Source: Dialister succinatiphilus YIT 11850
Lineage (GTDB): Bacteria; Bacillota; Negativicutes; Veillonellales; Dialisteraceae
Assembly (NCBI RefSeq): GCF_000242435.1
Contig: NZ_JH591187.1
Coordinates: 867,512 to 931,511 of the forward strand
Direction: 5' to 3'
Length of the DNA stretch: 64,000 nt
Translations under genes and position numbers: made by a program
Part shown: positions 51,676 to 53,400 of the stretch, piece by piece
Layout of the letters: the number at the start of each line of letters is the position of its first letter
Position numbering within the stretch: the stretch's first letter is position 1
The notes under the pieces: generated by a model
The model's database searches: none
Told to the model about the DNA's origin: nothing
The model's input: only the letters and a program-made list of their open reading frames with translations

Positions 51676-51709
51676 AAAGGGTTCAAAGGGTTCAAAGGGT
51701 TCAGAGGGG
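51676..51709. repeat. 9-bp repeat (AAAGGGTTC)n, second locus
   Basis: Three perfect AAAGGGTTC units then AGAGGGG, the same pattern as 42105-42147, leading directly into the hairpin array. Confidence 0.85.
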
Positions 51710-51712
51710 AAG

Positions 51713-51980
51713 GTTGACGGGGCTTCGCCCCGAGGGTTGTGGCCGCCTGACGGCGGCGGGTTGTGTCGAAGGGTTGTGAAGAGAAAGGTTCTTAAGATGG
51801 ATGGGCCTTCGGCCCAAGGGTTCTTAAGTTTGACGGCCCTTCAGGCCGAGGGTTGTGGTATCGCCCTTGGACACACCTTCGGTGTGAGGGTTCTTAAGAT
51901 GGACCGGCCTGCGGCCGGAAGGTTCTTAAGTTTGACGGCCTTTCAGGCCGAGGGTTGCGGATTGCCCGTTGGGCAATGCT
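51713..51980 (+). repeat. Hairpin-linker array, left arm (eight hairpins)
   Basis: Eight different short perfect inverted repeats with 3-5-nt loops, e.g. GGGGCTTCGCCCC (51719), GCCGCCTGACGGCGGC (51742), TGGGCCTTCGGCCCA (51802), CACACCTTCGGTGTG (51872), CCGGCCTGCGGCCGG (51904), TTGCCCGTTGGGCAA (51962). They are separated by recurring linkers GAGGGTTGTGG and GGGTTCTTAAGTTTGAC. Linkers are constant, stems vary but stay complementary. No gene. Confidence 0.85.
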
Positions 51981-52264
51981 TATGAAGTCAGCGTTACGGA
52001 TTAGCTTTATGAGTCATAGGGCATGAAAAACATTCTGCTGACTGGCTCGCTGCGCTCGCCTCCCCCTATCCGGCTTCGCCGGACTTCCCCCGCAAGCGGG
52101 GCAGAATAAAGCTAACGCATAGCGAAGAATAAAGTCCCCCCGCCGGGGGGAAGGTGGTGGCGCCAGCCACCAAAAGGGGTGCATTTCCGACGCCCGCAGG
52201 GCGGTTGTAAAGGTTTTACACAAACTGGCGCCTTCCATAATTTAGAGGCGCCCTCCACAACCCT
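51981..52264. repeat. Hairpin-rich DNA between array arms
   Basis: More inverted repeats (TCCGGCTTCGCCGGA, CCCCGCAAGCGGGG, TCCCCCCGCCGGGGGGA, GGTGGTGGCGCCAGCCACC, CGCCCGCAGGGCG) without the regular linker. No gene. Confidence 0.7.
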
Positions 52265-52415
52265 CAGCGGCATAGCCGCTGTCAAACTTAAGAACCCTCG
52301 GGGCGATAGCCCCGTCAAACTTTAGAACCCTCAAGCCCCAAAGGGGCTTGTCCATAAGGCGGTTGTATGGTTTTCGCCGCCAAAGGCGGCATAAGAAATG
52401 GCGCCGAAGGCGCCG
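52265..52415 (-). repeat. Hairpin-linker array, right arm part 1 (inverted)
   Basis: Hairpins CAGCGGCATAGCCGCTG, CGGGGCGATAGCCCCG, CAAGCCCCAAAGGGGCTTG, GCCGCCAAAGGCGGC and GGCGCCGAAGGCGCC. The first are joined by GTCAAACTTAAGAACCCTC, the exact reverse complement of the left-arm linker. Confidence 0.85.
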
Positions 52416-52429
52416 TACCTCGCCAGCGG

Positions 52430-52633
52430 GCACGGTCAGCCAACCAACAGGTAAGCCCTTTAATGGGCAGGCTAAGGGCCTACTTTGGCTGACTTGGAGG
52501 TCCTATGCAGGACCTCCACAATACTATATACCTCCCGAGGGCGAGAGCCCGGAGCCCGCCTGTAAGGCGAAGCCGATCACAGGCAGAACCCTGGCAGCCC
52601 AGGGCCGAAAGGCCCGGCGGCTGGCTCAACCCT
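52430..52633. other. Structured block of unknown identity
   Basis: About 200 bp lacking the linker but rich in nested complementarity: GTCAGCCAA (52436-52444) pairs with TTGGCTGAC, enclosing GCCCTTTAATGGGC. Then GGAGGTCC/GGACCTCC, GGGCGAGAGCCC, GCCTGT...ACAGGC enclosing GGCGAAGCC, CCCTGG/CCAGGG, and GGGCC-GAAA-GGCCC with a GNRA loop. It may be a structured RNA or further palindromic repeats; no known RNA family recognised. Confidence 0.45.
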
Positions 52634-52804
52634 CACGCCCGTAAGGGCGTGTCAACCTTCGGGAATACTGGAAAGCATCGCGCCGGTCCCGGTCCCGATC
52701 TCGACCGCGCCACAGGCGCTTCAAACTTTAGAACCTTCGCACCGTAAGGTGCGTCAAACTTCAGCCGCGAAGCGGCTGTCAAACATGAGCCCGCAAAAGC
52801 GGGC
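52634..52804 (-). repeat. Hairpin-linker array, right arm part 2 (inverted)
   Basis: Hairpins CACGCCCGTAAGGGCGTG (52634), GCGCCACAGGCGC (52707), CGCACCGTAAGGTGCG (52738), CAGCCGCGAAGCGGCTG (52762) and GCCCGCAAAAGCGGGC (52789), with linkers of the TTCAAACTTTAGAACC / GTCAAACTTC type. The last ends 5 bp from the ANTAR gene stop. Confidence 0.85.
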
Positions 52805-52809
52805 AGCTC

Positions 52810-53400
52810 TTACCTGTTCTTTCTTGCCATGATTTCCTTTACTACCTTCTGCGCCACATCGGCGATGGTGATGCCCCGCTTCATACTGGTCTGCTGCATA
52901 CGGCGATAGGCATCTTCTTCAGTAATATGGTAGTAATCCATAAGAAGGCCCTTGGCACGATCCACGATCTTCCGGGCAGCCAGTTCTCTTTCCATGTTTT
53001 TCACCCGGTCCACCATGTCTTTCTTCTGTCTGTACTGACTCACGGCAATCTGAATGGCAGGGAAGAGTGTCTTCTCTTCCACCGGTTTCATGACATATCC
53101 AAAGACCATGGATTTCTTGGCCTTTTCAATCATATCTTCATCACCGAAAGCAGTGAGAAGAACTACAGGAGCCAGATTATCATGAGCAATCATGCGGGCA
53201 GCCTGTATCCCGTCAAGCCTCGGCATTTTTACATCCAGAATAGCCAGATCCGGCTTCTTCTCTTTTACCAGATTCAGTGCTTCCACGCCATCGGAGCCAA
53301 TGCCCACCACTTCGTGGCCTGCTTCTTCCAGCATTTCCCTAAGGTCCATGCAGATGAGAGCTTCATCATCTGCGATAACGATTCGATATTTTTCTGACAT
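52810..53400 (-). CDS. ANTAR-domain response regulator
   Basis: A 196-residue two-component regulator that acts on RNA by antitermination. The receiver domain (1-120) has the acidic pocket ADDEA, the phospho-acceptor Asp in AILDVKMP (about 55), and the VMKPVEE lysine. The C-terminal ANTAR domain (about 135-190) has KIVDRAKGLLMDYYHITEEDAY and the following helical RMQQTSMKRGITIADVA. Closest known logic is EutV or PdtaR. It is directly downstream of its kinase (1 nt between stop and start), ribosome-binding site GGAGGG inside the kinase end. Confidence 0.94.
   Translation of the reverse strand: MSEKYRIVIADDEALICMDLREMLEEAGHEVVGIGSDGVEALNLVKEKKPDLAILDVKMPRLDGIQAARMIAHDNLAPVVLLTAFGDEDMIEKAKKSMVFGYVMKPVEEKTLFPAIQIAVSQYRQKKDMVDRVKNMERELAARKIVDRAKGLLMDYYHITEEDAYRRMQQTSMKRGITIADVAQKVVKEIMARKNR

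Follow-up and report, generated by a model that had tools for sequence, protein, structure and literature searches.

The hairpin array at positions 51676–52804 of the window (the whole 64-kb stretch of DNA that was analysed) is one copy of a dispersed, high-copy, intergenic, non-coding mosaic element, which is restricted to Dialister among the genomes searched. RAYT transposases are the usual explanation for REP/BIME-like repeats, whose definition rests on conserved stems; this element has neither, yet it is present in hundreds of units and is 95% replication-aligned. A family with such polarity suggests an unrecognised kind of mobile DNA. As to the mobilisation route, we infer that the element is REP/BIME-like non-autonomous mobile DNA that spreads through a folded single strand at the replication fork and is reshaped by recombination, an explanation to which we give slightly less than an even chance. 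It is a natural system for testing whether short hairpin repeats spread via single-stranded DNA at forks, and how stems change while pairing is kept. Dialister is a common human gut genus, and in it the element provides ready-made landing sites and recombination points.

Anatomy of the window copy

The element is flanked by two minus-strand genes, one for a metallo-hydrolase and one for an ANTAR response regulator. When a perfect hairpin is defined as a stem of at least 6 bp with a loop of 3–4 nt, the whole window contains 141, and 22 of these fall within 51718–52804, where about two would be expected from the rest of the window (a density roughly 10 times that of the remainder). An earlier sequence-only reading had reported at least 16 short perfect hairpins; the count bears this out, and the array is far above chance.

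The left edge consists of three 9-bp tandem copies of GGGTTCAAA(G) (51676–51708, plus strand, family D6), and similar edges are present in many other copies. It is followed by the left arm (51709–51977, plus strand), which has homologous arms at many loci and was used to build structure model R1. Its hairpins (at 51718, 51742, 51802, 51835, 51872, 51904, 51936, and 51961, plus strand) are connected by linkers with the pattern AGGGTTCTTAAG(T/A)(T/G)(T/G)GA, and it includes an 87-nt tandem duplication (51787–51975, plus strand, family D2) whose two units, 51787–51873 and 51889–51975, are 84% identical. Between the arms lies a hairpin-rich central region (51978–52246, no strand assigned), which aligns with other copies, especially over 52062–52217.

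The right arm (52247–52353, minus strand) is inverted relative to the left and is predicted to pair with it; its hairpins occupy 52265–52281, 52299–52314, and 52332–52350, with linkers at 52281–52297 and 52314–52330 (all minus strand). Each arm runs linker, hairpin, linker, hairpin, GAGGGTTGTGG, hairpin, the right arm being an inverted, diverged copy of the left. The facing arms are homologous (86% complementary over 35 nt), and the element thus has terminal inverted repeats of the kind that define MITEs. That the two arms face each other had been recognised from the letters alone, and we agree.

The linker requires more care. The exact sequence GGGTTCTTAAGTTTGAC occurs once in the left arm (51818–51834) and once, reverse-complemented, in the right (52281–52297), with variants carrying 1–4 mismatches at 51786, 51888, 51920, 52314, and 52720. 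The sequence-only reading had described a constant linker recurring between the hairpins of the left arm, with its exact reverse complement in the right. Its presence in both arms and its inversion on the right stand, but there is only one exact copy per arm, the constancy is approximate (the others differ by 1–4 bases), and some hairpins have no linker between them.

Beyond the right arm, the stretch 52361–52720 lacks the linker and forms a structured module of its own. The part at 52361–52698, here called the core, is shared with the sister species Dialister sp. UBA1703 (G005) and with the single-contig genome G004. Its first part (52361–52429, plus strand) contains GGCGCC and GCCGCC hairpins, and its second part (52521–52698, plus strand), common to the two sister species, forms a covarying multi-stem structure ending in CGGGAATAC. 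Between them is an optional module with GTCAGCC...GGCTGAC ends (52430–52520, plus strand), which is missing from the core of most copies and recurs elsewhere in element centres in reversed orientation. The outermost hairpins (52720–52804, minus strand) sit beside the stop codon of the ANTAR regulator and are kept at the same locus in G005, where the match is 95% over 52706–52849. The 87-nt duplication, the core module, and the genome-wide family had all escaped the earlier reading.

Variable stems, conserved linkers, and a covarying core

The repeated unit can be written as TTTGA-[self-complementary stem-loop]-AGGGTT. Genome-wide, T[TG]GA and A[AG]GGTT enclose 818 intervals, of which 583 are perfect stem-loops; shuffling within each interval leaves a mean of 8. 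There are 44 stem sequences in all, 17 of them common; stems are mostly 6–8 bp, loops are mostly 3 nt, and 550 of the 605 stems with six or seven pairs begin with C-G. The proposal that linkers are conserved while stems vary and remain self-complementary is therefore upheld. Its companion, the label "inverse CRISPR", serves as an analogy only. A CRISPR array consists of constant repeats and unique non-palindromic spacers, whereas the variable parts of the Dialister element are self-complementary and recur at many loci, in a dispersed repeat family without spacer-like acquired sequence.

Folded as single-stranded DNA, a simple composite and the window copy give predicted z values of −12.9 and −11.4, respectively. 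In these predicted folds the linkers of opposite arms are paired with each other, and the hairpins project from the resulting ladder of four-way junctions. If the modelled ladder forms, linker-linker pairing would explain why linkers are constant and why stems are free to vary as long as they remain paired.

The core module evolves with its pairing intact. Across 29 copies, 12 of 30 pairs have changed on both sides and are still paired, with 74 double-change cells compared with 26 in shuffles and far fewer in slid controls. Two core stem variants are found in all four combinations, and in some copies (e.g., L076 and the G004 copies) non-matching core halves are joined; together, these sequence patterns show that copies of the element recombine.

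Copy number, distribution, and replication polarity

The host genome (G000) has 150 exact copies of the linker. When up to one mismatch is allowed the host count rises to 323; G005 has 76 copies of the linker and the sister genome G003 has one; the remaining relatives searched had zero matches, as did the reversed linker used as a control pattern. A linker confined to this single locus, which the sequence-only reading had named as evidence against itself, is excluded by these hundreds of copies in two species. When the window copy was used as a BLAST query against sampled stretches of the genome, composites of ~0.5–1.3 kb were recovered with the module order kept (left arm, centre, right arm, core). 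The 1.26 Mb sampled, half of the genome, contains 126 composites of at least 250 bp, and matches total 65.6 kb (~5%); since the sample is enriched for element-rich regions, the genome-wide share is probably below 5%. Long, nearly element-free stretches (C1 640–740k and 840–1080k, C2 300–480k) lie between dense regions of the host genome.

Model R1, which combines the structure and sequence of the left arm, was used for genome searches and matches G000, G005, and one copy in G004. The 58 remaining genomes listed for the order gave no match, and neither did a further 298 sampled from the phylum. The element is missing from most other Dialister and from every other family searched. G004 contains three element copies; its few elements cluster beside a ribosomal RNA region and transposase genes (C1:1991065–2014661), possibly as a transferred segment. 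A viral origin was considered and rejected: two exact linker matches in viral contigs, one inside a phage coding frame (L141) and one in an unrelated A+T-rich contig (L142), sit in unrelated sequence and are thus attributed to chance, and the core-module pattern has no match in viral contigs. Literature searches on Dialister repeats returned nothing relevant, and Dialister is not named in the RepRanger REP survey.

The insertion site differs between genomes. The gap between the flanking genes measures ~54 bp in G003 and ~20 bp in G004, compared with ~1.2 kb in the host. In G005 this gap is occupied by a rearranged version, which has the outermost hairpins in common with the window copy and then differs. 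Empty sites in two genomes and a differing version in a third indicate that the element arrived after the lineages split and has been rebuilt since. At other loci the position is likewise shared and the content remodelled; most comparable G005 elements occupy the same gaps as in G000, so that recent transposition is conjectural. No target-site duplication or excision product was resolved at these sites, where the intergenic DNA has diverged and element ends are variable.

The strongest regularity is orientation, with 120 of the 126 composites oriented against the leading strand (Fisher p = 1e-21). On C1, the minus strand carries the elements as far as ~616 kb and the plus strand those from ~753 to 1198 kb; from 1217 kb onwards, most are again on the minus strand. 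Matches to the left-arm model flip strand between C1:1198441 and C1:1217474, with dnaA at C1:1213204, and the GC skew changes sign at this flip and near C1:660k. In G005, left-arm matches are fully co-oriented on 8 of the 10 contigs that have several. A control MITE of 165 bp in the same sequence splits 14:11 by replication strand, and control ORFs of at least 200 aa split 502:240, a bias much weaker than that of the element. Because the element's own GC skew opposes that of the leading strand, compositional fit does not explain the polarity. A rule based on gene orientation was also rejected, as element strand does not track neighbouring genes, and elements are found alike in convergent, divergent, and tandem gaps. 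Skew and polarity on C1 together imply very unequal replichores (~0.55 and 1.9 Mb) if C1 is correctly assembled, though the second flip near C1:660k may instead mark a large inversion.

Routes of spread and known relatives

Under the preferred explanation, one strand of the element, when exposed at the replication fork, would fold so that left- and right-arm linkers pair and hairpins protrude. A trans-acting enzyme other than Y1/RAYT would then move or copy the element through this folded strand, and such movement would fix the orientation of each insertion. After insertion, arrays would grow by tandem duplication and copies would swap whole hairpins by recombination. Linkers would be kept constant by the need to pair across arms and, probably, by recognition; stems would need only to pair with themselves. 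The polarity could also come from selection or orientation-dependent loss instead of polar insertion. The stronger proposition, that this is a new class of bacterial mobile DNA defined by a fork-folded four-way-junction ladder, a single replication polarity, and an enzyme outside Y1/RAYT, is one that we regard as possible and rather doubtful.

The search for machinery counts against this explanation in that it gave no candidate enzyme. Y1 transposases (IS200/IS605, RAYT; PF01797) have no match in G000, G004, or G005, and reverse transcriptases (RVT_1) are group II intron maturases found in G000 only. A group II intron or other retroelement as the mover was rejected, since reverse transcriptase is missing from element-rich G005. 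The intron reverse transcriptase itself has three copies of equal match score in the host (C1:476279, C1:548218, and C4:47749) and none in five other Dialister genomes searched. IS256, IS110, IS3-like, and UPF0236 transposases are present, none of them linked to the element's origin. Another candidate, an ORF of 407 aa found in several copies near elements, was rejected, as it has no Pfam match and appears to be a chance reading frame within repeats.

A conventional REP/BIME family, mobilised by a RAYT that is now lost or low-copy, would account for palindromic units in inverted pairs with linkers, intergenic and in more than 100 copies, and Y1 transposase genes do exist in the sister genome G003. 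That genome, however, is almost element-free, the three element-bearing genomes have no Y1 gene, and the units carry no GTAG tag and have variable rather than conserved stems; we consider this origin improbable. The absence of Y1 transposases from three genomes that clearly carry the element also leaves the association with a TnpA-REP-like enzyme, raised by the sequence-only reading, unsupported. The two G003 genes lie at C107:37004–37360 and C44:36595–36939, and one has an internal TGA.

The elements might instead help to organise the chromosome or mark its polarity, as KOPS/FtsK-orienting or nucleoid-binding sites do; insertion could then occur in any orientation, with selection retaining only replication-aligned copies. 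The polarity and its flip at dnaA fit such a role, as do the MITE and gene controls, which are not comparably polar. Chromosome polarity signals are usually densest at the terminus, however, and elements are absent from long stretches that include the putative terminus (C1:640–740k); they are also missing from most other Dialister and all other families searched, and their motif units occur in both orientations within each element. We judge this role unlikely, if worth keeping in mind. A function in RNA, as structured transcripts, UTR elements, or attenuators whose stems are kept by selection on the RNA fold, would suit the strong compensatory changes in the core, the very stable predicted folds, and the terminator-like sites (7 compared with 1.9 expected). 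Selection in RNA, however, predicts more G-U pairs than A-C mispairs on the transcribed strand, and neither strand has such an excess (G.T counts are 34 on the leading and 24 on the lagging strand; p = 0.24). Rfam gave no match at the gathering threshold and two sub-threshold matches (best E = 0.08). These two results favour a DNA-level element, and orientation that follows replication rather than flanking genes, in all types of gap, also speaks against RNA, so that we give this function a low probability; the core module may have an RNA role alongside the DNA-level element. A terminator array was rejected, as T runs follow only a few hairpins. An assembly or repeat artefact is scarcely credible: contigs of G005, a fragmented MAG, often end in element repeats, but copies are also embedded, with ordinary genes to either side, in a 1.26-Mb contig from a genome that is 99.95% complete, and others are in single-contig G004.

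Among known systems, BIMEs and the RAYT-mobilised GTAG REPs and REPINs are high-copy intergenic palindromes in inverted pairs with linkers, mosaic, growing in tandem, and lineage-restricted (PMC3733652, PMC8266576). The Dialister element, with its more than 100 intergenic palindromes, shares all of these properties with them, and the layout of the array is therefore partly precedented. It differs from them in its conserved linkers and variable stems, its TTTGA and AGGGTT flanks in place of a GTAG tag, the lack of a Y1 transposase, its longer units, nested with other modules, and the strong replication polarity of its composites. CGTC REPs have stems of 8–9 bp that almost always start with A-T pairs and loops of 4–5 nt (PMC3733652). 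Like these repeats (including Neisseria dRS3 in mosaic intergenic regions), the element has no dedicated transposase known, forms mosaic clusters, and has many hairpins followed by GTC(AAAC) on one strand, but its stems are mostly 6–8 bp and usually start with C-G, and its loops are mostly 3 nt. The element is thus BIME-like in layout, while it lacks the REP tag, conserved stems, and a RAYT and falls outside the CGTC stem and loop definition. The earlier statement that no named repeat class has this layout holds for the layout as a whole, BIMEs being the closest.

Integron attC sites are structured single-stranded DNA, recognised by shape and linked to the lagging strand. IS200/IS605 elements similarly rely on structured single-stranded DNA, have a lagging-strand link, and are recognised by shape more than by sequence (PMC6006769). 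The Dialister element resembles both in its predicted single-stranded structure and is unlike IS200/IS605 in that the host genome has no Y1 enzyme and the element no coding cargo. The double-hairpin and repetitive hairpin-forming elements of fungal and sponge mitochondria are mobile, GC-rich, and non-coding, with an abundance that differs between close relatives, as in Dialister (cited in PMC2800124); they are organellar, and in sponges the stems are conserved and the loops variable, the reverse of the Dialister arrangement.

Elements also serve as targets for other mobile DNA. Two copies of an IS256-type (Mutator family) transposase lie inside element centres (L045 12925–14169 and L078 10777–12024), apparently inserted at the same motif, GGACGTGACCGCCGAAAGG, with apparent target duplications of 8–9 bp. 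In the host genome (L083 14119–14600; C2, ~464.2 kb), the 165-bp MITE, with TAGGGAAGC...GCTTCCCTA ends, sits in the loop of an element hairpin, and the G005 counterpart (L117) is uninterrupted, revealing a clean TA target. This MITE has ~25 copies of at least 90 bp in the sample and no replication polarity. Finally, short tandem repeats of the CACTAGCCCACTAG type are found at one end of several elements (L043, L115, and L083 14120), just upstream of genes.
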